Shown here: piece by piece, positions 14,517-30,268 of the stretch
Layout of the letters: each line of letters starts with the position of its first letter
Position numbering within the stretch: position 1 is the first letter of the stretch
Assembly: GCF_035994185.1 (NCBI RefSeq)
Contig: NZ_CP108538.1
Location: 5,681,501-5,745,500, forward strand
Length of the DNA stretch: 64,000 nt
Direction: 5' to 3'
From: Streptomyces sp. NBC_01217
GTDB lineage: Bacteria; Actinomycetota; Actinomycetes; Streptomycetales; Streptomycetaceae
Position numbers and translations under genes: made by a program
The notes under the pieces: model-generated
Databases searched by the model: none
What the model was told of the DNA's origin: nothing
The model's input: the letters and a program-made list of their open reading frames with translations, nothing else

Positions 14517-14684
14517 ATGCCGAATCGCCTGGACCGTGAGACTTCCCCGTACCTCCTCCGGCATGCCGACGATCCCGTCGACCGCCGGCCCCGGCCGCCC
14601 GAGGCCTTCGAGGAGGCGTGGAGGCACAACGTGCCGGTGCTGCTCGGCGTCGGGTACGCGGGCCGCCACTGGCACCGAGTAGAT
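14517..14684 (+). pseudogene. Decayed 5' fragment of a DUF255/thioredoxin-fold gene
   Basis: From ATG at 14517, with a GAGAGGA ribosome site, about 56 codons match the N-terminus of the full gene at 27447: SPYLLRHADDPVD here against [13 protein letters not shown] there, and NVPVLLGVGYAGRHWH against the VGYASCHWCH expected of the family. The frame is open but key residues have decayed: three Trp codons of the DWWPW motif are now Arg codons, and both Cys of CHWC are gone. Homology ends just after the CACTGG hexamer at 14668. This is the Streptomyces-like original 5' end, left behind when the downstream segment arrived. Confidence 0.75.
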
Positions 14685-14804
14685 GAAGGCAACCAGGTGG
14701 CACAGACCACCGAAGGTGATCACTGTGGCGGCCCTGCCATGCTGTTTGGCCGGGTTCCGGTGGGAGCCGGTGCGGCCGGCGGGGCAGTGGACCCGGAGGG
14801 CCGA

Positions 14805-15290
14805 TCACGGGCTGTCGAGTGCGGGCGGCCGGGGCGTGACCGAGTCGTCGAGGGATACCCGCGTGCGGGCGAGCAGTGTCTCCAAGTCGGTCAGCTGGCC
14901 GGCGTCGAGGGCTCCGAAGACGTGCCGCAGAGCCTGTCGGCCGGTCTGCTCGCCGGCCGCGAGAGCTGACCGTCCCTTGTCCGTCAGGTCGACGGTCTTG
15001 CGGCGTCGGTCGGTGGGATCGGTGGCGCGGGTGATCAGGCGGAGGCGTTCGAGAGCCTCGACGGTCTGGGTCACCGAGCGCGGTGCCCGGCCGAGTGCCT
15101 CGGCGAGTTCCGACTGGTGCATGGCGCCGTGCCGGGCGAGCAGCTGGAGCAGCTTGGTTCGGGACAGCGACAGTCCTGCGGTGGCCATGTGCTGGTCGAC
15201 CGCACTCCTGGCCTGATGGGCGACGGTCAGGAAGCGCAGGCCCACGTCGGCAGGGTCGGGGCTGTTCAGCGGTGTTTCGCGCTCACTCAT
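14805..15290 (-). CDS. MarR-family transcriptional regulator
   Basis: A 161-residue winged-helix repressor-type protein: dimerisation helices at both ends, a recognition helix in RAPRSVTQTVEALERLRLI, and the wing RATDPTDRRRKTVDLT. It is divergent from the short-chain dehydrogenase gene with 41 bp between starts. That gap and the neighbouring start codon hold a 14-bp perfect palindrome, the expected operator for a MarR dimer. It probably represses both itself and the dehydrogenase and is released by a small aromatic ligand, as is usual for the family. No Cys residues are present, so direct thiol oxidation sensing is unlikely. Confidence 0.92.
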   Translation of the reverse strand: MSERETPLNSPDPADVGLRFLTVAHQARSAVDQHMATAGLSLSRTKLLQLLARHGAMHQSELAEALGRAPRSVTQTVEALERLRLITRATDPTDRRRKTVDLTDKGRSALAAGEQTGRQALRHVFGALDAGQLTDLETLLARTRVSLDDSVTPRPPALDSP

Positions 15291-15316
15291 GGTGTCGAGT
15301 ATCGTCGCACAAAGAA

Positions 15317-15336
15317 TTGATGAGGTACCTCATGAA
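15317..15336. promoter_or_regulatory. MarR operator palindrome over the SDR start codon
   Basis: ATGAGGTACCTCAT at 15320-15333 is a perfect 14-bp palindrome; extended to 20 bp it matches at 18 positions. It covers the ribosome site and start codon of the dehydrogenase and lies 26 bp before the MarR start, so a bound dimer would block both genes. Confidence 0.7.
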
Positions 15337-16216
15337 TGGACTGATGGTGAACCGACCCCTCGCTGTGATCACCGGTGCTACGTCCGGACTGGGCCGGATC
15401 ACGGCTCTGGAAATGGCACGCCGCGGCTACCGGCTGGGCATCGTGGCGCGCTCCGAGACGAAGTCGCAAGCACTGTTGGACGAACTGAAGAACGTGGCCG
15501 ACGACGTTCGGGCCGACGTCTTCTTCGCCAACCTCTCCCTGGTCGGCGAGGCCCGTCGGGTGGGACGGGAGATCGCCTCGCGGTACGGTCGGCTGGACGT
15601 ACTGGTCAACAACGCGGGTCTGCACGCCTTCCATCAGCGCGTCACAGCCGAGGGCCTGGCGGAAATGACTGCGGTGAACTATCTCGCCCCGTTCGCGCTC
15701 ACCCTGCAGCTGACCAGCACGCTTCTGGCATCCGCCCCGGCGCGGATCGTGAACGTCGCCTCGGAGGCCGCCCGGCAGGCCGGCAGCATCACTCCCGCTA
15801 CGGACCTGCGGAACACCGCACCGTACACGCGGCGCGAGTCGATGGCGCTGTACGGCCGCACGAAGTTGATGACGATCATGTGGACCCAGGAGCTGGCTCG
15901 GCGTCTTGACGCCACGAAGGTCACCGTGAACTGCTGCGACCCCGGCTTCAACGCCACCGGTCTGGGACGGGACCTGCCCGGCTCCGCCGTGCTGCAGCGC
16001 GTGCTGAACACACTCCGGGTGGGAGATCCGCGCCGGGGCGCCGGGATCATTGTGCGCCTCGTGACCGACCCGGCGTTCGCACAGACCAGTGGGGGTTATC
16101 TCTCCGTGCGCGACGCCGAGCCGCTGCAGTGCCCTGAGCCCGGACGTGGCGAGCAGGTGCAGCGACGACTGTGGTCGGAGACGGTGTCCTTGCTCGACGG
16201 CCTGGGCGCTGCGTAG
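15332..16216 (+). CDS. Short-chain dehydrogenase/reductase
   Basis: A 294-residue SDR enzyme. It has the Rossmann NAD(P) motif TGATSGLG near residue 17, the NNAG motif (VLVNNAGLHAF), a catalytic Tyr-x-x-x-Lys (ALYGRTKLM) and the later CCDPGFNATGLGR segment. Arg after the second strand (IVARSETK) suggests NADP preference. Sequence features resemble the retinol-dehydrogenase-like SDRs that reduce aldehydes or ketones; the substrate is unknown. ATG at 15332 has GAGG seven bases upstream; an in-frame ATG at 15320 is the alternative. Control by the divergent MarR protein is likely. Confidence 0.92.
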   Translation: MNGLMVNRPLAVITGATSGLGRITALEMARRGYRLGIVARSETKSQALLDELKNVADDVRADVFFANLSLVGEARRVGREIASRYGRLDVLVNNAGLHAFHQRVTAEGLAEMTAVNYLAPFALTLQLTSTLLASAPARIVNVASEAARQAGSITPATDLRNTAPYTRRESMALYGRTKLMTIMWTQELARRLDATKVTVNCCDPGFNATGLGRDLPGSAVLQRVLNTLRVGDPRRGAGIIVRLVTDPAFAQTSGGYLSVRDAEPLQCPEPGRGEQVQRRLWSETVSLLDGLGAA

Positions 16217-16276
16217 CACTGCCCACGACAGGTCCGCGGGCGCGCGGCCCTGTCCCCCTTCGGCGACGGGCGGATC

Positions 16277-16314
16277 CGGTACCGCCGTACCGAATCACCG
16301 GTACTGCGGTACCG
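16277..16314. promoter_or_regulatory. Tandem GGTAC-N4-GTACC operators upstream of the MMPL operon
   Basis: GGTAC-CGCC-GTACC at 16278-16291 and GGTAC-TGCG-GTACC at 16300-16313 are two inverted repeats whose starts are 22 bp apart, two helical turns. Together they also form a 16-bp hairpin (16277-16292 with 16299-16314, one mismatch). They are 125 bp before the MMPL start. The likely binder is the NarL-type response regulator of the same operon. Confidence 0.6.
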
Positions 16315-16437
16315 CCCGGTGCCGGCATTGCGTCCGGTGGTAGCTGCCGACGGCTTTCCCCGTTCTCTACGTTGAGGCTCCGGGCTCGCATCGGCCCGTG
16401 ACCGAACGTCTTCTTCTCCTCATGGGAGTACCTTTTC

Positions 16438-18666
16438 GTGGCCACCTTCCTCTACCGGCTGGGCCGGACGGCTTTCCGGCGGCGCCGGCTCGTGCTGCTG
16501 ATATGGATCGCCGTGCTTGTTGCCGCCGTGGCCGGTGCCGGCAGCGTCTCCGGCAGTACGACCGACAACTTCACTCTGCCCGGGACACAGTCCCAGCAGG
16601 CTCTGGACCTGCTGGAGAAGGAGTTCCCGCAAGCGTCCGCCTCCGGTGCCACCGCCCGTGTCGTCTTCGAGAGCACAGACGGGAACAAGCTCGCCTCAGC
16701 CGCTCACAAGGCCGGCGTCGAAGCCGTGGTGGCCGATCTGAAGAAGGCGCCGCAGGTGGCGGCGGTGATCGATCCCTTCACCGGCGGAATGGTCAGCACA
16801 TCAGGCACCATTGCTTACGCCCAGGTCACCTACGCCGTGCCGTCGGCCGACATCACCGCGGGTGCCTCCGACACCCTGAAGGAGATTGCGCGGCGGGGCG
16901 AGCAGGCCGGGCTGACGGTGAGCCTGGGCGGCAACGCGGCCCAGGACGACGGCGAGAGTCGGGCCACGGAGTTGATCGGCCTGGTGGTTGCGGCCCTGGC
17001 ACTGGTGATCACATTCGGCTCGATGATCGCGGCCGGTCTGCCGCTGCTGACCGCCATCGCCGGTGTCGGTGTCGCGCTCTGCGCGATCACCATCGCGTCC
17101 TCCGTCACCGATATGGCCTCCAACGCCTCCACGCTGGCGCTGATGCTGGGGCTGGCGGTCGCCATCGACTACGCCCTGTTCATCGTCTCCCGTTACCGCA
17201 GCGAACTGCGGGAGGGGCATCAGCCGGAGGAGGCCGTGGGGCGGGCGCTGGGCACGGCGGGCTCGGCGGTGGTCTTCGCCGGGCTCACAGTGATCATCGC
17301 GCTGGCGGGACTGAGCGTCATCGGTATCCAGATGCTCACCACTATGGGCCTGGCCGCCGCCTTCGCGATCGCCATCGCGGTCCTGATCGCGCTCACTCTG
17401 CTGCCGGCCACGCTGGGTTTCACCGGGTCACGGGTGGCCCACGGGCGCCTCACCTCGCGTCGTGTGCGCCGGGCCGAGCGCGGCCAGGCCGACACGATGG
17501 GTGTGCGCTGGGGGCGGTTCGTCACCCGTCATCCGTGGCAGATGCTTCTGGCCTCCGTGATCGGCCTGGGGGTCCTGGCCATCCCGGCGGCGTCGTTGCG
17601 GCTGACACTGCCCGACGACAGCATGGCCGCCCCGGACAGCACCCAGCGCGTCGCCTACGACACCCTCAGCAACGGCTTCGGGCCCGGCTTCAGCGGCCCC
17701 CTCATCGTGGTGGTGGACGCCCGCGCGAGCCACGATCCCCAGGCCGCGGCCGAGAACACCACGGGCCTGCTGGACAGGCTGGACGATATCGCCATCGTGC
17801 GTCCGGCCGTCTTCAACAAGGCCGGCGACGTCGCTCTGGTCACCGCCGTCCCGGAAAGCGCACCCACCAGCCAGGCCACCGTCGACCTCGTCGCCCACAT
17901 CCGCGAACGCAGCGCCGAACTGGAAAAGGACAGCGGCGCACAGCTGATGGTCACCGGAACCACCGCCGTCAACATCGACGTCTCCGACAAGCTCGGCGAC
18001 GCCATGGTCCCCTACCTGGCGATCGTCGTCGGACTGGCACTCATCCTGCTCATGCTGGTCTTCCGCTCGATCTTGGTGCCGCTCAAGGCCGCCCTCGGCT
18101 TCCTGCTCAGCGTGGTCGCCACCCTCGGGGTCCTGGTGGCGGTGTTCCAGTGGGGATGGCTGAAGGATCTCTTCGGCATCGACCAGACCGCGCCCATCGT
18201 CAGCCTGCTGCCGATCCTGCTGATCGGCGTGGTCTTCGGCCTCGCCATGGATTACGAGGTGTTCCTCGTCTCCCGCATGCGCGAGGAGTACGTCCACGGC
18301 GCCACCCCCACCGAGGCGATCACCGCGGGCTTCCGTCATGGGGCGCGCGTGGTCACCGCAGCGGCGATCGTCATGATCTCCGTCTTCGCCGGGTTCCTCC
18401 TCGACGACGTCGCCCTGGTCAAGTCGATCGGCATGGGCCTGGCCACTGCGGTCCTGTTCGACGCCTTCGTCGTACGGATGACGATCGTCCCGGCCGTGAT
18501 GACCCTGCTCGGGCACCGCGCCTGGAGCCTGCCGAAGTGGCTCGACCGGGTCCTGCCCAACGTCGACGTCGAAGGCGAGAAGCTGCGTCACGCTCTGGCT
18601 ACCGGCGACCACGCCACCGGCCCGGCAGCCGGCGATCCCGAGCCAGTGGCCTCCGCACGCCGGTAG
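16438..18666 (+). CDS. MMPL-family exporter (RND superfamily)
   Basis: A 742-residue inner-membrane transporter of the MMPL type. It has an N-terminal membrane helix, an outer loop with TTDNFTLPGTQSQQALDLL, a block of membrane helices including MLGLAVAIDYALFIVSRYR, then a second outer loop and a second helix block with LIGVVFGLAMDYEVFLVSRMR. The repeated Asp-Tyr in the two halves is the proton-relay signature. Relatives export lipids, siderophores or antibiotics. The GTG at 16438 follows GGGAGTA. It leads an operon with a histidine kinase and response regulator, which suggests drug- or envelope-induced export. Substrate unknown. Confidence 0.92.
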   Translation: MATFLYRLGRTAFRRRRLVLLIWIAVLVAAVAGAGSVSGSTTDNFTLPGTQSQQALDLLEKEFPQASASGATARVVFESTDGNKLASAAHKAGVEAVVADLKKAPQVAAVIDPFTGGMVSTSGTIAYAQVTYAVPSADITAGASDTLKEIARRGEQAGLTVSLGGNAAQDDGESRATELIGLVVAALALVITFGSMIAAGLPLLTAIAGVGVALCAITIASSVTDMASNASTLALMLGLAVAIDYALFIVSRYRSELREGHQPEEAVGRALGTAGSAVVFAGLTVIIALAGLSVIGIQMLTTMGLAAAFAIAIAVLIALTLLPATLGFTGSRVAHGRLTSRRVRRAERGQADTMGVRWGRFVTRHPWQMLLASVIGLGVLAIPAASLRLTLPDDSMAAPDSTQRVAYDTLSNGFGPGFSGPLIVVVDARASHDPQAAAENTTGLLDRLDDIAIVRPAVFNKAGDVALVTAVPESAPTSQATVDLVAHIRERSAELEKDSGAQLMVTGTTAVNIDVSDKLGDAMVPYLAIVVGLALILLMLVFRSILVPLKAALGFLLSVVATLGVLVAVFQWGWLKDLFGIDQTAPIVSLLPILLIGVVFGLAMDYEVFLVSRMREEYVHGATPTEAITAGFRHGARVVTAAAIVMISVFAGFLLDDVALVKSIGMGLATAVLFDAFVVRMTIVPAVMTLLGHRAWSLPKWLDRVLPNVDVEGEKLRHALATGDHATGPAAGDPEPVASARR

Positions 18667-18792
18667 AGCCGACCCCGGCCCGCTGTCGGCGGCGCCATCG
18701 CGCGCCCCGCTGTTCCCGCCCGCCGACCCACATCCCCCGGGGCCGGCGGGCGGTTTCCTCAAGGACCGGAGCCCGAAAGGCACAGCATCCCA

Positions 18793-20097
18793 GTGGCCCG
18801 ACCCGAAACGGCACCCGCAGCCGTCGCCGCACGGCTGCCCCAAGCCCTGACAGAAGATCCGACCCAGCGGGTCACCGTCTCCATCATCAAAGGCCTGGCC
18901 GCCTGGCGCATGGCTGATGAAACCCGTCCCCGGCTGCGCCGCTGGGGCGTGCCGGTCATGTGTGTCCTGCTCGGCCTTCCGGCCGTCCTCGCCTCCGGCA
19001 ACCGCTCCCACCTGCCCGTCGAGCTCGCGCTCACGCTCGCGCTCACGCTGCCACTGGTATGGCGCGAGCAGCGGCCCGTGCTCGTGTTCACCCTTGCCAC
19101 CGCCGTCTCCCTGGCCGCACTGCCACTGGGGGTACTCAACGGAGCCGACGCCGCCCGCGTCGTCGCGCTGTACAACGTCGGCCGCTACGGCACTCCGCGG
19201 CAGCTGGCCGTCGCCTCCACTGTGACGGCGGCCCATCTGGCCGTGTGGGCCACGGTCTTCTGGGGCAGCGGCCATCTCCAACACGCCAAGCGCCCCGAAA
19301 TGATGACGCTCCTGGCCATGCTGGCCGTCACCGCCTGCGCCGGACTCGCCCTCACCGGGCGCCTGGCCAAGGCGTACATCGTCGCCCTGGAGAGCGAACG
19401 CGAACAGCAGACCCGCCTCGCCGCCGCCCAGGAACGCGCACGGGTCTCCCGCGAGATGCATGACGTCCTCGGCCACACCCTGGCTGTCATCGTCGGACTC
19501 GCCGACGGAGCCGCAGCCCTGGCAGCAACCCGGCCCGAACGATCAGCCAACGCACTGGGCATCATCGCCGACAGCGGTCGCGATGCCCTGGCCGAACTGC
19601 GGCGCCTGCTCATCGTCGTCGACCCGGAGCCCGCCCCCACAGAAGGCCATCCGCTCGCCCCCCAACCGGGGCTGGCCGACCTCGATGCACTGATGGAGCG
19701 GGTCGGAGCCGCCGGACCCACCGTGGCACGGCAAACGAGCGGCAGCCTGGCAAGCCTGAGTTCCGGCGTGCAGCTGACGGTCTACCGCATCGTCCAGGAA
19801 GCGCTCACCAACACCATCAAACACGCCGCCCCGGACACCACCGTCACCGTCACCCTGACCGCCGGGGCAGACAGAGTCGACGTCACGGTCGAAGACACTG
19901 GCCCCCCGCGCACCGCTCCCTCCCACCGCCCGGCGAACGGCGAAGGCCGGGGCCTGCTCGGTATCCGTGAACGCGCCGCCCTCTACCAAGGCCACCTCAC
20001 CGCAGGCCCCACCCACAGCGGCGGCTGGAGGCTCCACACGGTCCTGACCCCGCACCGCTCCCTGCCCACAACCGCCCCGAAGGACCCGTCCCCATGA
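18793..20097 (+). CDS. Sensor histidine kinase (NarX/HisKA_3 type)
   Basis: A 434-residue membrane kinase starting with GTG at 18793 (MADETRPR at 18910 is a possible later start). Five or so hydrophobic segments fill residues 50-195. The dimerisation domain has the phospho-acceptor H223 in SREMHDVLGHTLAVIVG, and the HATPase_c domain has VQEALTNTIKHA as N-box and GRGLLGIRERAALY as G-box. The short outer loops suggest sensing inside or at the membrane. Its stop overlaps the next ATG (ATGA), so it is coupled to the response regulator. Together with MMPL it makes a self-contained sensing and export operon. Confidence 0.93.
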   Translation: MARPETAPAAVAARLPQALTEDPTQRVTVSIIKGLAAWRMADETRPRLRRWGVPVMCVLLGLPAVLASGNRSHLPVELALTLALTLPLVWREQRPVLVFTLATAVSLAALPLGVLNGADAARVVALYNVGRYGTPRQLAVASTVTAAHLAVWATVFWGSGHLQHAKRPEMMTLLAMLAVTACAGLALTGRLAKAYIVALESEREQQTRLAAAQERARVSREMHDVLGHTLAVIVGLADGAAALAATRPERSANALGIIADSGRDALAELRRLLIVVDPEPAPTEGHPLAPQPGLADLDALMERVGAAGPTVARQTSGSLASLSSGVQLTVYRIVQEALTNTIKHAAPDTTVTVTLTAGADRVDVTVEDTGPPRTAPSHRPANGEGRGLLGIRERAALYQGHLTAGPTHSGGWRLHTVLTPHRSLPTTAPKDPSP

Positions 20098-20777
20098 CCA
20101 CCGTCCTCATCGCCGACGACCAAACACTCCAACGCCTCGGCTTTCGCATGCTGCTCGAAGCACAACCCGACATGGCCGTCGTCGGCGAAGCCGCCCAGGG
20201 CCGGGACGCCGTCCGCCTGACCGCCGAACTGCGACCCGACGTCGTCCTGATGGACGTGCGGATGCCCGGCATGGACGGCATCGAAGCCACCCGTCGCATC
20301 GCAGAATCCGGCGGACGCTCCCGCGTGCTCGTCCTGACCACATTCGACCTCGACGAATACGCCTACGAAGCCCTGTGTGCCGGCGCCGCGGGCTTCTTCC
20401 TCAAAGACGCCCGACCCGACGAACTCGTCGTGGGCATCCGCGCCGTGGCAGCCGGAGACTCCGTCATCTCCCCCAGCCTCACCCACAAGCTCATCAGCGC
20501 CTTCACCGCACACCACTCACCGCACCGGCCGCCATCAACCCCGCTCGAACTCACCCACGGGCAGCGACAACGGCTTGCCGGCCTCACCGATCGAGAACGC
20601 GAAGTCCTACGCTGCATCGCAGCGGGCCGCAGCAACCAGGAGATCGCCAACCAGCTCCACCTGGCGGAATCCACCGTGAAATCGCATGTCAGCCGCATCC
20701 TCACCAAGATCCATGCCCGCGACCGCGTTCAGGCCGTCATCTTTGCCTACGACGTCGGCCTTGCGCACCTTGCCTGA
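20094..20777 (+). CDS. NarL/FixJ-family response regulator
   Basis: A 227-residue regulator: receiver domain with acidic IADDQ, phospho-acceptor D54 in VLMDVRMPGMDGIEA, and Lys in FFLKDARPDEL, then a LuxR-type helix-turn-helix (LTDREREVLRCIAAGRSNQEIAN, in two parts with HLAESTVKSHVSRIL). It is partner to the kinase just upstream. Proteins of this class bind short inverted repeats as dimers, so the tandem GGTAC-N4-GTACC sites before the MMPL gene are the natural target. The codon usage is somewhat less GC-rich than the core genes. Confidence 0.94.
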   Translation: MTTVLIADDQTLQRLGFRMLLEAQPDMAVVGEAAQGRDAVRLTAELRPDVVLMDVRMPGMDGIEATRRIAESGGRSRVLVLTTFDLDEYAYEALCAGAAGFFLKDARPDELVVGIRAVAAGDSVISPSLTHKLISAFTAHHSPHRPPSTPLELTHGQRQRLAGLTDREREVLRCIAAGRSNQEIANQLHLAESTVKSHVSRILTKIHARDRVQAVIFAYDVGLAHLA

Positions 20778-20803
20778 GCGACCCTCACCAACGTCAGGAA
20801 CCG

Positions 20804-20873
20804 CACTACTTCGCCGACCCGCACCGTCCCTGGCAGCGCGCGGCACCAACGAGAACACGAATGGTCTGTTGCG
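20804..20873 (+). pseudogene. IS30-family transposase C-terminal relic
   Basis: One frame reads YFADPHRPWQR and, two bases out of phase, continues GTNENTNGLLR. Joined, they are the conserved C-terminal block of IS30-type DDE transposases, including the catalytic Glu region. A 2-bp shift at 20839-20842 breaks it. No further transposase sequence or inverted repeat is visible on either side. The rest of the stretch 20778-21207 has no gene; it holds a weak GCCTCC/GGAGGC repeat near 20957-20971 and the palindrome at 21064. Confidence 0.65.
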
Positions 20874-21063
20874 CTATCGGGGCCCCGGCGGCGTGGTTCG
20901 TCACCGCGTCCGACGAGCGATGTCGGTCAGGCGCTGCTGAACCGGCGGAAGGGCCTCCATACAGGGGAGGCATTAGTTCCGCGAACTCTACGGGTGAACG
21001 AACGGTGAGCCGTCCCAAGTGACACGCCCGGCTCATCGCTCAACGCGCGCGCTCTTTCATCGG

Positions 21064-21079
21064 TGATTAAGGTTAATCA
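21064..21079. promoter_or_regulatory. Palindromic operator before the molybdenum hydroxylase operon
   Basis: TGATTAAGGTTAATCA is a 7-bp perfect inverted repeat around GG, in an unusually AT-rich patch 130 bp before the operon. It fits a dimeric regulator of GntR, LysR or MarR type. No such regulator gene is adjacent on this operon's side. Confidence 0.45.
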
Positions 21080-21207
21080 TCACGTGAGGTGCTATTTCAT
21101 ATGGTTTACCCCCCAATGGTGGCGCGAGTGCCTGCAGAGCGCCTGCGAAGTGGAGCCGTCCACGGTTGGTGCCCGCGAGATCTCAAGCGCACAAGTGCAG
21201 GGGAGTA

Positions 21208-23520
21208 ATGGTGGATCAGTGGGCACGGCGCGAGGACCAGAGGCTGCTCACGGGGAACGGCCGGTATGTCGCCGATATTGAAGTGCCGGGATGTCTCGAT
21301 GCCGTGTTCGTGAGAAGTAAAGTCGGACACGGCACGCTGCGAGCGGTGGACTGCGGTGCGGCACGGGAGGTTCCCGGGGTGGTGGGGGCCTGGGCCGCCA
21401 CAGATCTCACAGGTATGCCGCCGTGTGCACACTCGGCCGCCATCTTGCAGGACCTGCCGCCAGTGCCGCACACCGTGCTCGCCAAGCTGTCCTCGGACGA
21501 GGCGGTGGTCGGCCGCGAGTGGCCGGCGCTGGTGAAGGACCGCGTGCGGTACGCCGGCGAGGCGGTCGCGGTCGTCCTCGGCGAGGACCGCTACCAGGCC
21601 GAGGACGGAGCAGCAGAGGTCACCTTCCAGGTCGACCCGCTGCCCGCAATGGTGACGCCCGCAGCCGCGGCGAAGGACCTCGTCCGCCTTTTCGAGGGGT
21701 TGAGCAACATCGCCCTTCAAGGGGAGGCCGGGCAGCCGATCGACGACGGCGTGTGGCAGCAGGCCGCGGCCGTGGTGGAGGGCCGATACCGCCAGAACCT
21801 GCTCATGCCCATGCCGATGGAGTGCAGGACGATCCTCGCCATCCCCGAGAAGGACCGTTTGACGGTGTGGTCGGGGCACCAGATGCCGCACCGGCTACGC
21901 CGTGAACTGGCCGCGCTGCTGGGCTGGTCGCAGGAACAGGTGCGCGTGGTGGTCCCGGACACGGGCGGCGCGTTCGGCTCCAAGAGCGCCTCCTTCCCGG
22001 AGTTCGTCGTCGTGGCCTTCCTGGCCGTCCAACTGCAGCGGCCCGTCCGGTGGATCGAGGACCGGCTGGAATCGATGATGGTGGCGACGCGAGGCCGTGG
22101 CCAGGACCAGCACGCCCGGCTCGCCGCGGATGCCGAGGGCCGCCTACTGGCCTACGAGTTGCACATCGATGCCGATGTCGGCGCCTATCCGCACCTCGGT
22201 GTGGGCCTGCCGATGCAGACCGCGTGGATGGCAACTGGCCCCTATGTCACTCCTCAGGTCCACGCGACCCTCCGCTCGATCCTCACCAACACCATGCTGA
22301 CCTACCCCTACCGGGGCGCCGGCCGCCCCGAGGCGGTGATCGCCCTGGAGCGGTCCATGGACACGCTGGCACGGCGGCTGGGCATCGACCCGGCGGAGCT
22401 GCGGCGGCGTAACTTCATCCCGCCCGAGAGCTTCCCCTATGAAACGCCCACCGGCCGGCAGTACGACAGCGGTGAATACGCCCGTGCGCTTGACCTGGCC
22501 TTGGAGACCATCGGGTACGACACGTGGCGTACCGAACAGGCCCGGCGCCGAACGGACCCGACCGCCAAGCCTCTGGGTATCGGTATCTCCTGCTACGTGG
22601 AGCGTTCCGGCGGCGAACCGGGCGGGTTGCACGAGTTCGGCAGCATCGAGGTCGCCGAGGACGGCACCATCACTGTCCGGTTGGGCGCGGCATCCAGTGG
22701 CCAGAGCCACGAGACGGTCTTCCCCGCGCTGGTCGCGAAGTTCCTCTGTGTCGACGAGCACCGCGTTCGGCTGATCGAGGGAGACACTGCCGAGCAGCCC
22801 GAGGGACTGGGGTCCTTCGCCAGCCGCACGGCCCAGGTGGCCGGCGCGCTGCTCCAGCACGCCTCCCAGCTGCTCATCGAAGAGGCCCGGAAGAGGGCCG
22901 CGGGGCTGTGGGAGCTGCCAGTGGATCAGGTGGAATGGTCAGACGGCACCGTGCAAGCCACCACCAACGGATCGGTCATGGACGTGGGCGAACTGGTGAA
23001 GAACACCGGGCCGCTGCGGGTGGAGGACCGGTTCGAGACGGGAATGGCGTTCCCGTTCGGTACCCATGTGGCCGTTGCCGAGGTCGACCCGGAACTGGGC
23101 ACCGTGAAACTACTGAAGATCGTCACTGTCGACGACTGCGGAGTGGTCCTCAATCCGGAGATCGTGCGCGCACAAGCCTTCGGCTCCGCCCTCCAGGGCA
23201 TCGGCCAGGCGCTCTACGAGGCGATCCCCTACGACGAGGCCGGCACGCCCCTACTGGGCAACGGACTCCTGGACTATCTGCTGCCCACGTTCACCGAGGT
23301 ACCGCCCATCGAGGTCAAGGACACCTGCACCCCGAGTCCCAGTTCGCCCCTGGGCGCCAAGGGCGCCGGGGAGTCGGGCTGCATCGGCCTGCCGGCGGCG
23401 ATCGTCAACGCCGTGGTCGACGCGCTCCGGCCGGCCGACCCCGACCTGCTGCAGATGCCGCTCACACCGGACGTGGTCTGGCGCGCGGCCCGAGCCCCGA
23501 AACTGGAGGAGACCCGGTGA
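21208..23520 (+). CDS. Molybdenum hydroxylase large subunit (xanthine dehydrogenase/CO dehydrogenase family)
   Basis: A 770-residue molybdopterin-cytosine-dinucleotide-type subunit that hydroxylates a substrate with water at the Mo centre. It opens with an Ald_Xan_dh a/b hammerhead (LLTGNGRYVADIEVPG), followed by GGAFGSKSASFPE for cofactor binding. The active-site loop is YRGAGR at residues 368-373, matching form II enzymes rather than the AYxCSFR loop of true CO dehydrogenase. The C-terminal GAKGAGESGC carries the general-base Glu. Start ATG 21208 follows AGGGGAG. The partner FAD and [2Fe-2S] genes follow with overlaps. The context points to an N-heteroaromatic substrate. No XdhC/CoxI-like maturation gene is in the window. 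Confidence 0.93.
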   Translation: MVDQWARREDQRLLTGNGRYVADIEVPGCLDAVFVRSKVGHGTLRAVDCGAAREVPGVVGAWAATDLTGMPPCAHSAAILQDLPPVPHTVLAKLSSDEAVVGREWPALVKDRVRYAGEAVAVVLGEDRYQAEDGAAEVTFQVDPLPAMVTPAAAAKDLVRLFEGLSNIALQGEAGQPIDDGVWQQAAAVVEGRYRQNLLMPMPMECRTILAIPEKDRLTVWSGHQMPHRLRRELAALLGWSQEQVRVVVPDTGGAFGSKSASFPEFVVVAFLAVQLQRPVRWIEDRLESMMVATRGRGQDQHARLAADAEGRLLAYELHIDADVGAYPHLGVGLPMQTAWMATGPYVTPQVHATLRSILTNTMLTYPYRGAGRPEAVIALERSMDTLARRLGIDPAELRRRNFIPPESFPYETPTGRQYDSGEYARALDLALETIGYDTWRTEQARRRTDPTAKPLGIGISCYVERSGGEPGGLHEFGSIEVAEDGTITVRLGAASSGQSHETVFPALVAKFLCVDEHRVRLIEGDTAEQPEGLGSFASRTAQVAGALLQHASQLLIEEARKRAAGLWELPVDQVEWSDGTVQATTNGSVMDVGELVKNTGPLRVEDRFETGMAFPFGTHVAVAEVDPELGTVKLLKIVTVDDCGVVLNPEIVRAQAFGSALQGIGQALYEAIPYDEAGTPLLGNGLLDYLLPTFTEVPPIEVKDTCTPSPSSPLGAKGAGESGCIGLPAAIVNAVVDALRPADPDLLQMPLTPDVVWRAARAPKLEETR

Positions 23521-24449
23521 AGCCCGCCGCGTTCGACTACGTGGTGCCCCGCACGGTGTCCGAGGCCGTCGACGCCCTGGGGGACGGGGAGCGCAGGGCC
23601 CAGGTCCTGGCCGGTGGCCAGAGCCTGCTCCTGGAGATGCACCTGGAACGCATCCGCCCCGACCTGGTCGTCGACATCAACCGCATCCCGGAACTCGACG
23701 ACATGCGGGTCGTCGACAACACACTGCAGGTCGGCGCCCTGATCAGGCATCAGGCCTTCGAGTCCGCGCGGGCCGTGCCAGGCCCCCTCGGCTCGTTGTT
23801 CTCCCTTGCCGTCGTCAACATCGCCCACCCGCCGATCCGGTCGCGGGGAACGATGGTGGGCAGCTTCGGCTGGGGACATCCCGCGTCCGAGTGGTGCGCC
23901 ATCGCCATGGCCTTGGACGCCGACATCCGACTGCGAGGACCCGAAGGCGCTCGTACCGTCGCGGCCCGCGACTACTTCCACGGTCCGCTCAAGACCGCCC
24001 GCCAGCCGCGAGAGCTCATCACCTCTGTGCGGTACCCGCTGCTCGGCGACGACGTCGGCGTCGGCTTCATCGAGCACCGGCGCACGCACTTCTGCTTCGC
24101 GCAGGTGGCCTCCTCGGCGGCGCTCACGGTACGCGACGGGGTGATTGTCGAGGCGAGAATCGGGCTGGTCAACTGCGCCGACCGGCCGCTGCGGGCGCAC
24201 GCGGCGGAGCAGGCCCTGGCGGGCGTGGAGGTCGGACCCCCGATGGACGGTTACCTGTTGCCCGAGGAACATCCGTTCGCCCGTGCCGGCCGGATCGCTG
24301 CGGAGCACGACGCCGCCCCGATCGCCGAGCCGTACGCCGACCTCGAATACCGTCGGCACGCCATCGCCGTCGTCCTCGCCAGAACGCTGTGCCAGGCGGC
24401 GAACGACCACCGTTCGCGCGTCGGTGAGCTCAAGGGAGACAGCCAATGA
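23517..24449 (+). CDS. Molybdenum hydroxylase FAD-binding (medium) subunit
   Basis: A 310-residue subunit of the CoxM/NdhM type that passes electrons from the iron-sulfur subunit to an acceptor. FAD motifs are visible: AGGQSLLLEMHLERIRPD near residue 35 and the second motif GTMVGSFGWGHPASEW near residue 110; in relatives this reads TxGGxxxxAxPxxE. The CO-dehydrogenase C-terminal domain follows. The GTG at 23517 overlaps the previous stop (GTGA) after a GGAGGAGA site, so translation is coupled. The gene order large-medium-small differs from the cox order medium-small-large. Confidence 0.92.
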   Translation: MKPAAFDYVVPRTVSEAVDALGDGERRAQVLAGGQSLLLEMHLERIRPDLVVDINRIPELDDMRVVDNTLQVGALIRHQAFESARAVPGPLGSLFSLAVVNIAHPPIRSRGTMVGSFGWGHPASEWCAIAMALDADIRLRGPEGARTVAARDYFHGPLKTARQPRELITSVRYPLLGDDVGVGFIEHRRTHFCFAQVASSAALTVRDGVIVEARIGLVNCADRPLRAHAAEQALAGVEVGPPMDGYLLPEEHPFARAGRIAAEHDAAPIAEPYADLEYRRHAIAVVLARTLCQAANDHRSRVGELKGDSQ

Positions 24450-24928
24450 AGATCACCCTCACCGTGAACGGCGAGGAGTTCCCCCTCGACGTGGAGCCTC
24501 GGCGCATCCTCGCGGACGTACTGCGGGAGGACTGTCGGCTGACCGGCACGCATCTGGGATGCGAGCACGGTGTCTGCGGGGCCTGCACGGTGCTGGTGGA
24601 CGGTGAGGCGGTCCGCTCCTGCCTGATGCTGGCCGTGCAGTGCGACGGCAGCTCTGTACGGACCGTGGAGGGACTGACCGGCCCGGACGGCGAGCCCAGC
24701 GCGCTGCAGCGGGCCTTTTCCGCCGAACACGCGCTGCAGTGCGGCTTCTGCACGCCCGGATTCCTGATGGTGGCCGCCGGGGCACTGGAAGCCGAGCCCG
24801 CCCTGGCGGATCACCCCGAGCGTGTGGATCACATCGTCGGATCCAACGTATGCCGGTGCACCGGCTACGAACCCATCCGTCGCGCGATCATGCGGGCAGC
24901 GCGGGAACAGCAGGAGTCCGTGACCTGA
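24446..24928 (+). CDS. Molybdenum hydroxylase [2Fe-2S] (small) subunit
   Basis: A 160-residue electron-transfer subunit with two [2Fe-2S] clusters. The N-terminal plant-ferredoxin cluster is bound by Cys39, Cys44, Cys47 and Cys59 (GCEHGVCGAC then SC). The C-terminal helical-bundle cluster is bound by Cys99, Cys102, Cys136 and Cys138 (CGFCTPGF and CRCTGYEPI). All eight ligands are present. The ATG at 24446 overlaps the preceding stop (ATGA). With the two genes upstream it forms a complete three-subunit enzyme. Confidence 0.95.
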   Translation: MKITLTVNGEEFPLDVEPRRILADVLREDCRLTGTHLGCEHGVCGACTVLVDGEAVRSCLMLAVQCDGSSVRTVEGLTGPDGEPSALQRAFSAEHALQCGFCTPGFLMVAAGALEAEPALADHPERVDHIVGSNVCRCTGYEPIRRAIMRAAREQQESVT

Positions 24929-24969
24929 TCCTGTTCTCGTGCCGATCCCGGCGGTGTTGAGGAGTGGAA

Positions 24970-25959
24970 ATGGCTGTAACGGGAAGCGTCCGTGCCGGAG
25001 TCATCGACGTCCACGCACACTGGCTGCCCCGGGAACTGCTCTCCCTCCCACCGGGGTCCCCCCTGGGCGGCATGAGCGACCGCGACGGGGAGTTGTATCT
25101 GGGGGACAACCCGCTGTTCCTCGCCACCACGGCGATGACCGACATCGACGTGCTCGTCGCCGACACGCTGAAGGCGGGTCTCGGGGCACGCGCTGTCTCG
25201 GCGCCTCCCTTCGCTTTCCCCGTCCACGTGCCGTCCGAGGCGGACGACTACATCAAGGCCTACAACGACCGGCTCGCCGAAGCCGTCTCCTCCACCGACG
25301 GCATCCTGGTCGGGCTCGGACTGACCCGCGTGGACAACGTGGATGCCGCCCACCGCGAGATGACCCGGTTGACGGCGATGGGCGGCGTCGCCGGCGTCGC
25401 CGTCCCTCCCCTCGTCCAAGGGCAGTCCTACGGTGAAGGCGTCATGCGGGAGGTACTGGCTGCCGCCGCCGACACAGGTCTTGCTGTCCTCGTGCACCCC
25501 ATGCAGTTGCCGAGGCCCGAATGGAAGGACCACTACCTGGCCAACCTGATCGGCAACCTGGTGGAGACCACGACAGCCGTGGCATCGCTGATCCTGAGCG
25601 GTGCCATGGAGGAACTGCCGGACCTGCGGATCTGCTTCGTTCACGGCGGCGGTTGCGCACCGTCGCTGGTCGGCCGGTGGGAACACGGATGGCATGCGCG
25701 GGCGGACGTACGCCGGGGGAGTGCCCGCCCGCCCGCCGAGGTGTTCACCAGGCTGTACTTCGACACGATCACGCACGACCCCGAAGTACTCGGGCTCCTG
25801 GCAGCTCATGCCGCGCGGGACCGGATTCTGTGCGGGAGCGACTACCCCTTCGACATGGCACAACCGGACCCCGTCCGCTTCCTCCTGGACAACGGCCTCG
25901 ACACCGCGACGCTCGAAGCGAACGGCCGCCGGTTCCTGGGCATCGAGTCCCGGGCCTGA
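24970..25959 (+). CDS. Amidohydrolase-2 family metal-dependent hydrolase or decarboxylase
   Basis: A 329-residue TIM-barrel protein of the ACMSD/amidohydrolase-2 family. Metal ligands are visible: H15 and H17 in VIDVHAHWLP, a His in LVHPMQLPRP, a later His in FVHGGGCAP and the Asp of CGSDYPFDM. Family members either decarboxylate aromatic acids without oxygen or hydrolyse rings and amides. In this operon it probably acts on the hydroxylated heterocycle or its ring-cleavage product; which one cannot be told. ATG at 24970 is chosen because GAGGAG lies five bases before it; the GTG two codons earlier is less likely. Confidence 0.88.
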   Translation: MAVTGSVRAGVIDVHAHWLPRELLSLPPGSPLGGMSDRDGELYLGDNPLFLATTAMTDIDVLVADTLKAGLGARAVSAPPFAFPVHVPSEADDYIKAYNDRLAEAVSSTDGILVGLGLTRVDNVDAAHREMTRLTAMGGVAGVAVPPLVQGQSYGEGVMREVLAAAADTGLAVLVHPMQLPRPEWKDHYLANLIGNLVETTTAVASLILSGAMEELPDLRICFVHGGGCAPSLVGRWEHGWHARADVRRGSARPPAEVFTRLYFDTITHDPEVLGLLAAHAARDRILCGSDYPFDMAQPDPVRFLLDNGLDTATLEANGRRFLGIESRA

Positions 25960-25967
25960 GGCGCACG

Positions 25968-27155
25968 ATGTCCGGGAACGGAGCGTTCAAGGCGCTGATC
26001 GTCGGCGGATCGGTCGGAGGCCTGGCAGTCGCACACGAACTGCGGGCCATCGACGCCGACGTCGCGGTCTACGAGCGGTCGACGGGCCGCACGCAGGCGC
26101 GCGGCGCGGGGATCGTCATGCAGCCCGAGGTCGAGGCACTCCTGACGCGCCTGGGCGTCTCCGCGTCGTCCGTGAGCGTCGAACTGCACGAACGCCAGCA
26201 ACTCCATACCGACGGTAGGGCCGCGTTGTACCGAGCTCCCCAGCTGATGACCGCCTGGGACACCCTCTACCGCGCGCTGCGAGAACCGCTCGCCCCGGTG
26301 TGCTACCGCCTGGACAGTTCGCTGCGCACCGTACGGGTGGACGGAGCCGAGGTGACCGCCGCATTCACCGACGGCTACACAGCACAGGGGAACTTCCTGG
26401 TCGGCGCCGACGGCATCGGCTCGATGACGCGCAGACTGCTCGACGCCACCTCCCAACCGACCTACGCCGGTTATGTGGCCTGGCGCGGTCTGGAACCCGA
26501 ATCCGCGCTACCGGACCACCTGCTGGACCTGCTGTCCGGTCGGTTCACCTTCTTCGGGGCGAGTGGAATGCAGATGCTGTGCTACCTGGTCCCCGGAGCC
26601 AACGGGGAGAGGGAGGAAGGCTCGCGGCGCGTCAACTGGGTCTGGTACGTCAACGTTGAAGAGTCGGACCTGCCGCACCTCCTGACGGGTCGCACCGGGA
26701 AGCAGTTCACGTACTTCCTCCCGCCGGGAGAGTTGCCTCCCGAGACAGCGGACCAGATCATCGCTGAAGCAGATACCTCGCTTCCGCCGCAGTTCGCCGA
26801 ACTGGTCCGGCTCTCCGACGTCTTCATGCAGCCGGTGTTCGACCTGCCCCCTCGCCGCATGGTCGCCGATCACGCCGCGCTGATCGGCGATGCCGCCGGC
26901 ACGGTCCGCCCGCACACCGCCTCGGGAACGTCCAAGGCCTTCGGTGACGCCGCCGGCCTGGCAGCCGCCCTGCGCGACTGGACACCCTCCCAGGAACTCC
27001 CCGCCCAGGCTCTTCACGCGTGGGAGCTACACCGACTCAGCCGACTCCTCACCCTGGCCGAGTCCGGCCTCCAACTGGCAGCGAGATCGATGCTGGGCGT
27101 CCCCGAGGGCGGCCAGTTCTTCCGGTCCGAGGGATCGCTCGGCGAACCCGGTTGA
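25968..27155 (+). CDS. FAD monooxygenase, 2,6-dihydroxypyridine 3-monooxygenase-like
   Basis: A 395-residue class A flavoprotein hydroxylase. The dinucleotide fold is at residues 10-20 (LIVGGSVGGLA), the second FAD motif is ALIGDAAGTVRPHTASG near residue 306, and the mid-section has TYAGYVAWRGLEP and a VNWVWYVNV block. These segments closely match remembered features of DhpH from Arthrobacter nicotine degradation (GIVxQPE, TYAGYVTWRG, GDAAxTPRPH). It would insert oxygen into a hydroxylated ring using NADH. It is last in the five-gene operon and is followed five bases after its stop by a perfect hairpin. Exact substrate is inferred. Confidence 0.88.
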   Translation: MSGNGAFKALIVGGSVGGLAVAHELRAIDADVAVYERSTGRTQARGAGIVMQPEVEALLTRLGVSASSVSVELHERQQLHTDGRAALYRAPQLMTAWDTLYRALREPLAPVCYRLDSSLRTVRVDGAEVTAAFTDGYTAQGNFLVGADGIGSMTRRLLDATSQPTYAGYVAWRGLEPESALPDHLLDLLSGRFTFFGASGMQMLCYLVPGANGEREEGSRRVNWVWYVNVEESDLPHLLTGRTGKQFTYFLPPGELPPETADQIIAEADTSLPPQFAELVRLSDVFMQPVFDLPPRRMVADHAALIGDAAGTVRPHTASGTSKAFGDAAGLAAALRDWTPSQELPAQALHAWELHRLSRLLTLAESGLQLAARSMLGVPEGGQFFRSEGSLGEPG

Positions 27156-27159
27156 TATC

Positions 27160-27197
27160 CCCGCTTCCACATCGGCCACGACCGATGTGGAAGCGGG
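27160..27197. terminator. Terminator of the catabolic operon
   Basis: A perfect 16-bp stem: 27160-27175 (CCCGCTTCCACATCGG) pairs with 27182-27197 around a 6-base loop. There is no T tract. The remaining 250 bp to the next start hold nothing I can identify. Confidence 0.85.
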
Positions 27198-27446
27198 ATG
27201 ATACGAGCAAAACGTCTTGCCGTCGGTAACGGCGACGAGCCAGGCATGGGCCGTGGCTCCGGCTCGTCTGTGGATGTCCACCGGGTGCAAGCGGGCAAAT
27301 TCCTCCGGGCAGCGAGGTCGGCGGGCCTGCCGCGCAGGTCAGGACGGCTCGGCCCGGTCTCCTCGGTCGGAGTGGCAAGCCCTTGCTTCTGGTCCGTCCC
27401 GCGGAAGCTGCGGGCTGGACGGACCGGATCGTGCGACGATGCCGGT

Positions 27447-29503
27447 ATGAATCGACTGGCCAACTCGCAGTCGCCCTACCTGCTCCAGCACGCTTCCAAT
27501 CCGGTGGATTGGTGGCCATGGGGAGAGGAGGCGATGAATGAAGCTAAGCGGCGGGACGTGCCCATTTTCTTGAGTGTGGGCTATGCGTCCTGCCACTTAT
27601 GCTTCCAGCGGTTTACTGGTGTCACGTCATGGCGCACGAGTCCTTCGAGGACGACGACACCGCCGCGTACATGAACGAGCACTTCGTGTCCGTCAAGGTG
27701 GACCGTGAGGAGCGGCCCGACGTGGACGCCGTCTACATGGAGGCCGTGCAGGCCGCCACGGGGCAGGGCGGCTGGCCGATGTCCGTCTTCATGACGCCGG
27801 ACGGGGAGCCGTTCTACTTCGGCACGTACTTCCCGCCGGAGCCCCGCCATGGGATGCCGTCCTTCCGGCAGGTACTCGAAGGCGTCCACAGCGCGTGGAC
27901 GAGTCGACGCGACGAGGTGGGCGAAGTCGCCGCGAAGATCACCAGGGACCTTGCCGGGCGGGAGCTGAGTATCGAGTCCGCAGGGGTGCCCACCGACGAG
28001 ACCCAGACCCTGGCGCTCCTCCAACTGACCCGGGACATCGACCCCGCGAGCGGCTGGTTCAAGGGAGACACCAAGTTCCCGCCGTCGATGGTGGTCGAGT
28101 TCCTGTTGCGCCACCATGTGCGTGCCGGTTCCGTGGCGGCGCTGGAGATGGCAGAGGGGCTGTGCGGCGCGATGGCTCGTTCGAGCCTGTACGACCAGGT
28201 GGGAGGCGGGTTCCACCGGTACGTACTCACGCCGAGGGCTGGTGGACCTTTGGTACCCCACTTCGAGAAGATGCTCTACGACAATGCGCTGCTCTGCCGG
28301 GCGTACGCGCACCTGTGGCGCTCCACGGGCTCGGAACTGGCCCGCCGGGTCGCCCTGGAGACCGCCGACTTCATGGTGCGCGAGCTGCGCACGGCACAGG
28401 GCGGCTTCGCCTCCGCGCTCGACGCCGACAGCGAGGACGGGGCCGGGAAGCACGTCGAGGGCGCGTACTACGTGTGGACGCCCGAGCAACTGCGGGAGGT
28501 CCTCGGCGATCAGGACGCGGCCTTCGCCGCGGAGTATTTCGGGGTGACGCAGGAGGGTACGTTCGAGGAGGGCTCCTCGGTCCTCCGGCTCGCGCGGACG
28601 GGCGCCGCGGTGGACGCGGACCGGGCCGCCGACGTACGGGCCAAGCTGCTGGCCGCCCGTGAACTGCGCCCGCGCCCCGGGCGGGACGACAAGGTGGTAG
28701 CCGCCTGGAACGGCCTGGCGATCGCCGCGCTCGCCGAGACGGGGGCGTACTTCGACCGGCCCGACCTGGTCGAGCGCGCCACCGAGGCGGCGGATCTGCT
28801 GGTACGGGTCCACATGGGCGACGTCGCCCGGCTGGCCCGTACGTCGAAGGACGGGCGGACCGGCGCGAACGCCGGGGTCCTGGAGGACTACGGCGATGTC
28901 GCGGAGGGCTTCCTCGCCCTGGCCGCGGTCACCGGCGAGGGCGTCTGGCTGGAGTTCGCCGGCTTCCTGCTCGACATCGTGCTCCAGCACTTCACTGGCG
29001 AGGGCGGCCGGCTGTACGACACGGCGGACGACGCCGAGCAGCTGATCCGCCGCCCGCAGGACCCCACCGACAGTGCGACCCCGGCCGGCTGGACGGCGGC
29101 GGCAGGCGCGCTGCTCTCGTACGCCGCGTACACCGGCTCCGAGGCCCATCGCACCGCCGCGGAGGGCGCGTTGGGCGTGGTGAGGGCGCTCGGCCCGCGG
29201 GTTCCGCGGTTCATCGGCTGGGGCCTCGCGGTCGCGGAGGCGTTCCTCGACGGCCCGCGCGAGGTCGCGGTAGCCGGCCCGGTCGGCGGCGAACTGCACC
29301 GCACGGCCCTGCTGGGCCGGGCACCGGGCGCGGTGGTGGCGGCGGGGGAGACGGCCGGTGCGGAGTTCCCACTGCTGGCGGACCGGCCGATAGTGGGCGG
29401 TGCGCCGACGGCGTACGTATGCAGACACTTCGTGTGCGACGCACCGACGACGGAGGCGGACGTGCTGGCGCTGAGTCTGGGCGCGGGGGTGTCCGCCGAC
29501 TGA
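27447..29503 (+). pseudogene. DUF255/thioredoxin-fold protein (YyaL-like), frameshifted at the active site
   Basis: Two frames together make a complete DUF255 protein of about 670 residues: an N-terminal thioredoxin-like domain followed by a six-hairpin-type alpha/alpha barrel. The 5' part (ATG 27447) reads [18 protein letters not shown] and VGYASCH, then shifts. The rest resumes with [24 protein letters not shown] from 27617. The break is a 20-bp insertion (27597-27616) exactly between His and Trp of the CHWC motif. The insertion supplies an in-frame ATG at 27599, so a shortened protein with only the second Cys might still be made, though no ribosome site is seen. The first 150 bp use less GC-rich codons than the rest. 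Confidence 0.8.
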
Positions 29504-30204: not shown

Positions 30205-30231
30205 TGTCGGGCATCGCCGGGCCCGTGCACG

Positions 30232-30268
30232 CCGAGTGGCCGCGGCTTCGAAAGCCGCGGCCACTCGG
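30232..30268. terminator. Terminator of the PAQR gene
   Basis: A perfect 17-bp stem: 30232-30248 (CCGAGTGGCCGCGGCTT) pairs with 30252-30268 around a 3-base loop. It is downstream of the minus-strand PAQR gene and upstream of the TetR start. Confidence 0.88.

Follow-up and report, generated by a model that had tools for sequence, protein, structure and literature searches.

Prophages of the phiC31 kind, which encode a large serine recombinase (LSR), integrate in coding sequences, and the concept of cis-mobilizable elements (CIMEs) and their accretion comes from integrative and conjugative elements (ICEs). The nearest parallels to the locus described here are the SXT/R391 ICEs at prfC and the integrative and mobilizable elements (IMEs) and islands at dusA, which resupply the 5′ end of the gene they enter and count restoration of its reading frame among their defining features: IMEVchUSA3 is described as restoring that of dusA, and the account of SXT in PMC2791158 has a tyrosine recombinase acting on nearly identical element (attP) and bacterial (attB) attachment sites. 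Here we analyze a 64,000-nucleotide stretch of Streptomyces sp. NBC_01217 (contig NZ_CP108538.1; G000:C1:5681501-5745500, where G numbers denote the genomes compared), hereafter the window, whose own coordinates are used throughout and in which a gene for a thioredoxin-like protein of the DUF255 family is split by a 13-kb segment (~14673-27446). In our assessment this segment is very likely an integrase-less remnant or passenger lying between the left and right attachment sites (attL and attR) of an LSR1-type element, which is found intact as a Streptomyces mashuensis prophage; the surrogate 5′ end at the junction is not fused in frame, an ATG in the phage arm reopens the host frame, and the same gene bears a second LSR scar.

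Like the prfC and dusA elements, that of the window resupplies the 5′ end of its target, and insertion within the 5′ coding region with displacement of the native 5′ end is seen both here (14517-14672, with the new end at 27447) and in S. mashuensis (G035). It differs from them in failing to restore the frame at scar 1, the LSR1 junction, where the window and seven other loci carry an overlapping pair of open reading frames (ORFs); from SXT in having an LSR and a differing phage arm; and from both SXT and IMEVchUSA3 in that two LSR families strike two points of one gene. The likeness to phiC31-kind prophages lies in an LSR with Resolvase and Recombinase domains beside the attachment site, a dyad around a 2-bp core and prophage genes, whereas the G035 LSR is only distantly related to those of phage records (25-29% identity to the 20 listed of 118 matching records and less than 60% to all 118, in a comparison that did not include LSR2). 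The arms in G035 and G022 form dyads and make attP unlike attB outside the 2-bp core, as is typical of LSRs, and an LSR adjoins the attachment-site end in both genomes and is absent from the window. Cargo without a recombinase gene between a clear attR and a decayed attL is also what defines a CIME, and tandem arrays at one site recur in G025 and G075, but each unit here carries its own target 5′ end and mobilization in trans is putative. LSR targets within coding sequences are known (PMC10083194), though the main text of that extensive survey of such targets makes no mention of DUF255, and our searches of the open-access literature yielded no report of DUF255, or of a Streptomyces thioredoxin-domain gene with a serine-integrase attB, as an integration site.

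An LSR1-type element at the CHWC codons of DUF255

The intact counterpart lies in S. mashuensis JCM 4059 (G035, locus L115), where two DUF255 5′ ends stand 57 kb apart with a prophage between them, in the order native 5′ fragment, attL, prophage genes, LSR, surrogate 5′ end, attR and host 3′ part. The nine prophage proteins submitted to PHROGs matched tape measure, major head protein, portal, terminase, endolysin, DNA primase (weakly), DnaB-like helicase, DNA polymerase and integrase, the last being LSR1, a 573-amino-acid large serine recombinase with Resolvase and Recombinase domains whose start lies ~90 bases from that of the surrogate, in divergent orientation. The attL reads TGTCACTGGTGCCAGTAGC... 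and the attR CACTTATGCTTCTGATAATTTACTGGTGTCACGTC, the latter bearing the same CACTTATGCTTC scar as the window. The two phage arms form the dyad TACTGG-TG-CCAGTA (13 of 20 positions paired, with 0.0002 of shuffles as good, and 0.0006-0.005 at arm lengths of 6, 12, 16 and 24), which points to TG as the probable crossover dinucleotide of LSR1. At the level of sequence, these junctions show an LSR1-type element sitting at the TG inside CACTGGTGYCA of the DUF255 CxxC codons, with the surrogate 5′ end at its right end. Just inside the prophage attL (left end, seen in L047 and L046), an ORF reads like porphobilinogen deaminase.

The first-pass annotation of the window had correctly recognized that the N-terminal part of the gene occurs twice. 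The left copy at 14517 (MPNRLDRETSPYLLRHADDPVDRRPRPPEAFEE..GYAGRHWH) is decayed, with three Trp-to-Arg changes and its Cys lost, and the right copy at 27447 is differently coded, as reflected in the G+C content of third codon positions (GC3; 0.90 vs. 0.74, with 0.88 for 27617-28261 and 0.92 for the remaining 3′ part); the two are 55% identical over 49 amino acids and are the sole matches of their kind at E<=0.001 in the whole genome. At the CHW codons, both ends run up to CACTGG or ACTGG, and the proposal that an integrative element had entered there with a surrogate 5′ end is borne out by the G035 prophage, its LSR and the shared scar. By contrast, the claimed in-frame fusion of the right 5′ end to the 3′ part does not hold, and neither does restoration of the host frame by the element. 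At the right junction, which reads TGCCACTTATGCTTCCAGCGGTTTACTGGTGTCAC, surrogate ORF1 reads on outside the host frame until a stop codon whose last base is 27674, and the host frame itself starts from the ATG at 27599, giving two overlapping ORFs. Of the suggested new insertion site and repair strategy, the former agrees with the absence of any report that we could find, while the latter is better described as a frame reopened, not repaired.

Of 392 Streptomyces genomes, 5 carry the exact scar TGYCACTTATGCTTC, every time at DUF255. A search of 199 Streptomyces genomes, the window's own included, with 27160-27640 as the query returned strong surrogate matches with the same odd junction in G146, G019 and G035 (S. 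mashuensis contig NZ_BNBD01000011.1, with the scar beside DUF255); two more Streptomyces loci (SM11 and NBC_01669, each covered by 8 kb of sequence) also have the scar there, and G286 has a one-base variant and retains LSR1 fragments next to the surrogate, a half-decayed case. Eight of nine junctions have an ATG that lies 15 nt upstream of the host TGG and shares the frame of the 3′ part, with the arm-to-host peptides MLPAVYW, MLLIIYW, MLPVIHW, MLLLVHW, MLPLIHW, MFLMLYW, MLLRIHW and MLPVIHW; the ninth, that of G135, is decayed, has no ATG and is left out of the eight-locus counts. Scanning genome contigs with the scar pattern gave at least 118 stretches, mostly by chance and thus no measure of prevalence, three of which match DUF255, all from Streptomyces; viral contigs gave 69 pattern matches, none beside DUF255, and no LSR1 when scanned for it.

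A double 5′ end might also arise by homologous recombination with an imported DUF255 allele and its neighboring genes, with no site-specific recombinase involved. The window, which has no recombinase, would fit such an event, and homologous exchange probably does occur here, as the G092 5′ end is mosaic-looking, with surrogate-like and native codons and an uninterrupted CHWC junction. That it produced the arrangement in the window is nonetheless very improbable, given that eight loci, including a prophage next to its LSR, have their junction at the same base with the same phage arm, and that the phage arms form a dyad.

We therefore favor site-specific entry, in which an LSR1-type element would have inserted into DUF255 at the TG of the CHWC codons and brought the surrogate 5′ end at its right end. 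Because the attP of a serine integrase must be unlike its attB, a seamless fusion would be hard to achieve, which would be why the frame is instead reopened by a start codon inside the phage arm, overlapping the end of the surrogate ORF. Ribosomes would then restart at the 27599 ATG, and the DUF255 protein is probably produced as two pieces, with its thioredoxin-like domain split at the active site; there are known cases of split thioredoxins able to reassemble. The present cargo may have arrived with the original element or replaced it later, with the LSR having since been lost.

The spacing and frame relation of the two ORFs are constant over the eight loci, which would suit a programmed −1 ribosomal frameshift joining them into a single protein with an active-site insertion. 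We deem this improbable, since no canonical slippery heptamer is seen by eye in the overlap and the position of the ORF1 stop varies: ORF1 terminates as CHLCF plus a near stop in five of the eight loci and later in the other three, the window included. It is also unlikely, if somewhat less so, that the gene is merely broken, with ORF1 as debris and ORF2 as a drifting pseudogene. The frame is indeed interrupted at the CxxC active site, and ORF1 of the window reads into an out-of-frame tail, but ORF2 is open for 634 amino acids in the window and for 628-633 in G019 and G146, and the ratio of nonsynonymous to synonymous polymorphism (pN/pS) of ORF1 is 0.13 when pooled over all pairs of the eight loci, which are not independent. 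ORF1 accordingly evolves under constraint, although this selection may partly have acted at the native-gene or phage stage.

It is important to note that several observations weigh against assigning the window segment to an LSR1-type element. Its attL is decayed and lacks the core TG, and the arm there resembles those of G075 and G025 modestly (7 and 15 of 2000 random 50-base windows, respectively, score as high) and that of G035 weakly (92 of 2000). The window holds no remnant of LSR1 or LSR2 and no match to the Recombinase, Resolvase or Phage_integrase families, and tyrosine recombinases, which occur in all eight genomes searched, are likewise absent from it; the missing integrase of the first-pass annotation is thus confirmed for the window itself, and the LSRs of its relatives explain the absence in part. 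The cargo is not phage-like, G035 has the sole intact LSR1 element at DUF255 (392 genomes searched, with the 30 best loci examined for adjacency), and no phage record among 50,697 carries the surrogate, the only match, MT839133, having been judged a bacterial chromosome on account of ORFs that read like NusA and InfB. The near stop of ORF1 is lost in the window, and no Shine-Dalgarno-like sequence is seen directly before the 27599 ATG. Lastly, the left native fragment is present at the scar loci of the window and G035 only: G019, G146 and G286 have the STAND-type gene of the host's left flank upstream, yet no native 5′ fragment was found there, and for G335 the 55 kb retrieved do not include a STAND gene.

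Relatives of LSR1 at E<=1e-30 occur in 68 of the 392 genomes, and 8 of the 30 best loci adjoin DUF255: that of G035 and seven at which the LSR gene stands alone. Stand-alone relatives with 45-48% identity were seen in nine genomes (L055, L063, L066, L070, L071, L076, L077, L283 and L284), each co-directional and placed between STAND and an unbroken DUF255 gene, in a gap of 1.0-2.3 kb; the eight full-length ones retain the YARTS serine motif, and all nine are without the stretch aligned to G035 residues ~455-520, by its position a probable coiled coil. The phiC31 integrase reportedly no longer recombines once its coiled coil is deleted, and the coiled-coil motif of the Listeria LI integrase is described as auxiliary and as helping to control directionality (PMC10754689), so that the retention of stand-alone LSRs missing this stretch is a puzzle. 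A recoding of the target by the resident LSR was considered for these nine genomes and rejected: the GC3 dip at CHW is real (0.64 vs. 0.87), but two LSR2 genomes dip at both sites, and surrogate origin explains the dip equally well.

Window architecture and a second LSR scar

The pieces of the window and their neighbors are the following:

11134..14391, minus strand: STAND-type AAA/TPR protein, host left neighbor (Pfam AAA_16, TPR_12, NB-ARC)
14517..14672, plus strand: native DUF255 5′ end, a decayed remnant that stops at the CHW codons (matches native alleles by tblastn and, at up to 79% identity, in DNA)
14667..14705, plus strand: attL remnant, CACTGG followed by the decayed phage right arm AGTAGATGAAGGCAACCAGGT (arm similarity to other attL)
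14805..15290, minus strand: MarR-type regulator, cargo (Pfam MarR)
15335..16216, plus strand: short-chain dehydrogenase, cargo (Pfam adh_short)
16438..18666, plus strand: MmpL-type exporter, cargo (Pfam MMPL)
18793-20097 and 20094-20777, plus strand: two-component pair of histidine kinase and LuxR-type response regulator, cargo (Pfam HisKA_3, HATPase_c, Response_reg, GerE)
21166..24928, plus strand: three-subunit molybdenum hydroxylase of the xanthine/CO dehydrogenase type, cargo (Pfam MoCoBD_1/2, FAD_binding_5, CO_deh_flav_C, Fer2_2)
24964..27155, plus strand: amidohydrolase (24964-25959) and FAD monooxygenase-type protein (from 25956), cargo (Pfam Amidohydro_2, FAD_binding_3)
27412..27446, plus strand: leader of the surrogate 5′ end, probably with its promoter, GATCGTGCGACGATGCCGGT preceding the ATG (also conserved ahead of the surrogates of G146, G019 and G035)
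27447..27674, plus strand: surrogate ORF1, DUF255 residues 1-52 and an out-of-frame tail (Pfam Thioredox_DsbH 1-52)
27594..27621, plus strand: attR of LSR1, phage left arm CACTTATGCTTCCAGCGGTTTACTGG with crossover dinucleotide TG, probably, at 27620-27621 (same scar beside the G035 prophage and at six further loci; attP dyad centered on TG)
27599..29503, plus strand: ORF2, host-frame DUF255 3′ part, starting at the ATG inside the phage arm (Pfam Thioredox_DsbH 49-162)
27617..28261, plus strand: segment probably of an LSR2-element allele, its left limit lying somewhere before 27824 (DNA identity to the G022 surrogate)
28244..28270, plus strand: attR of LSR2, GGACCTTTGGTACCCCACTTCGAGAAG at the PHFEK codons (identical in LSR2-bearing G022)
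28262..29503, plus strand: native DUF255 3′ part (82-97% identity to relative G075 from 28274 on)
29569..30264, minus strand: TetR regulator, host right neighbor (Pfam TetR_N)

The STAND-type gene diverges from the left DUF255 fragment across a gap of 125 bases, and a TetR gene is also found downstream of DUF255 in G035, G075 and G092 (three of the seven relatives' stretches). Among the matches listed from the 199 genomes, none from another genome extends upstream of 27410 into the accessory side, and the surrogate putatively carries its own promoter. Directly after the last cargo gene, a long inverted repeat at 27158-27200 (CCCCGCTTCCACATCGG...CCGATGTGGAAGCGGG) looks like a transcription terminator, and as such would keep transcription of the cargo operon from reaching the surrogate leader.

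The second scar is best understood from G022, where a different LSR (LSR2, 580 amino acids) sits inside the same gene at the PHFEK codons. The native 5′ fragment there closes with ...VVPHFEKVA and is followed by LSR2, several genes and a surrogate whose end, ...GGPLVPHFEKM, is in frame. Here the element does restore the frame, and the G022 junctions show, as read from their codons, an LSR2 element that codes its phage arm in frame (GGPLVPHFEK). Its arms form a dyad around GA (14 of 20 positions paired, with 0.0001 of shuffles as good), the center having been selected as the best in a scan. At E<=1e-60, 26 of the 392 genomes have an LSR2 relative, that of the window included, although at a distant place, and of the 29 LSR2 loci examined those adjoining DUF255 belong to seven genomes (G022, G269, G209, G336, G292, G323 and G296). 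Four of 392 genomes have the GGACCTTTGGTACCCCACTTCGAGAAG arm pattern, namely that of the window together with G022, G209 and G296, and all four carry an LSR2-type allele.

Over 27824-28261 the window shares 82-91% DNA identity with the G022 surrogate and 54-86% with ten other sequences (54-75% once G025 and G075, the nearest, are excluded), and G022 surpasses all ten in every 150-base window; over 27617-27823, all compared sequences are too alike for their origin to be assigned. The supposedly normal 3′ part is therefore native from ~28262 on, as its 82-97% identity to G075 from 28274 indicates, whereas 27824-28261 is G022-like and ends in the 28244 scar, and together these features lead us to read the window gene as an LSR1 surrogate, an LSR2-type surrogate and a native 3′ end in succession. 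The HRYV allele, which leads into VPHFEK, is carried by 2 of 65 readable survey genomes against 63 with ARYS (15 of the 80 genomes surveyed below have no readable stretch and are omitted) and is hence probably derived. Three further loci deserve mention: L410 (G336) holds a possible minimal element, with a 21-residue left remnant, LSR2 and a surrogate 5′ end, the last two ~130 bases apart, and L411 and L412 (G292 and G323) have a decayed LSR2 between STAND and DUF255 as well as unusually AT-rich third positions in the codons around PHFEK (GC3 0.50-0.58).

Empty sites and exchangeable cassettes

To place the locus in a wider context, we surveyed the flanks of 80 further Streptomyces genomes, drawn from the match list of the 199-genome search and thus not random; the LSR screen of these flanks used the G035 LSR only and missed the LSR2 of G022, so that absence of an LSR there means absence of LSR1. 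As the first-pass annotation had predicted for relatives without the segment, STAND and an intact DUF255 gene are contiguous in 30 of the 80 genomes, where fewer than 600 bp separate STAND from the only 5′ end and the CHWC codons are unbroken (27 of 49 with MPNRLAHETS-like 5′ ends, 3 of 11 with M.NRLAQATS, 0 of 16 with MNRLAGVTS and 0 of 4 others). This adjacency is likely the ancestral state, and the left fragment of the window is therefore the displaced native 5′ end. More than one 5′-end cluster is present in 9 of the 80 genomes, some of them fragments. In G175 (L346), the stretch retrieved has two broken DUF255 5′ ends, one of them MVNRLVHAQSPYLQQH, at a distance of 3 kb, and both lack CHWC codons; paired 5′-end matches outside Streptomyces, at G401:C11:60897-62762 (1.7 kb apart) and G407:C10:298059-300597 (2.4 kb apart), could reflect insertion or gene duplication.

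Beyond what the first-pass annotation had covered, the gene thus bears a second LSR scar and the locus is a multi-cassette hotspot. The left junction elsewhere reads CACTGGTG[CT]CAGT followed by element sequence in G178, G029, G135 and the first copies of G025 and G075, with one change in G028 and decayed in the second copies of G025 and G075. Between 5′ copies lie a CBASS system (G025), AbiE (G029), a type I methyltransferase and specificity protein (G178) and a Lamassu-like LmuABC (G075), while upstream of a single 5′ end are found type I-E Cas genes in G092 and, from our reading of the sequence, sugar-transport and MFS-type genes in G019 and G146; cassettes were chosen for two 5′ copies or a large gap, and no defense enrichment is claimed. 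In G025, G029, G178, G072, G075, G135, G092, G019 and G146, all Recombinase, Resolvase and Phage_integrase matches fall outside the cassette segments (Recombinase having been run on five of the nine). An LSR1 relative ~20 kb upstream of the first G025 5′ copy was considered and set aside as not tied to the array, the surrounding 40 kb containing no DUF255 5′ copy or STAND gene.

Tandem cassettes occupy the site in two genomes, G025 and G075. Their first cassettes (5.36 kb) are 97.9% identical, vs. 79% for the host gene over 734 nt, which suggests, if indirectly, that cassettes may be mobilized by a related element, and their second cassettes have common ends and different interiors. We tentatively propose, as a possibility that we rate below even, that DUF255 is a cassette dock, in which recombinase-less and often anti-phage cargo, each unit with an attachment core and a fresh 5′ end, would be moved in trans by phage-borne LSRs, and in which, in the class represented by the window, the phage arm would double as a translation restart site and leave the thioredoxin-like protein in two pieces split at CxxC.

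Together, these results add an integration hotspot in Streptomyces, served by two LSR families whose predicted attP/attB pairs could become genetic tools. They also offer a natural answer to a neglected problem, namely how an LSR element can reside in a useful gene although its phage arm must differ from the host arm, with two solutions in one gene: restart at scar 1 and in-frame coding of the arm at scar 2. The DUF255 locus is also one where whole defense systems appear to be exchanged as units.

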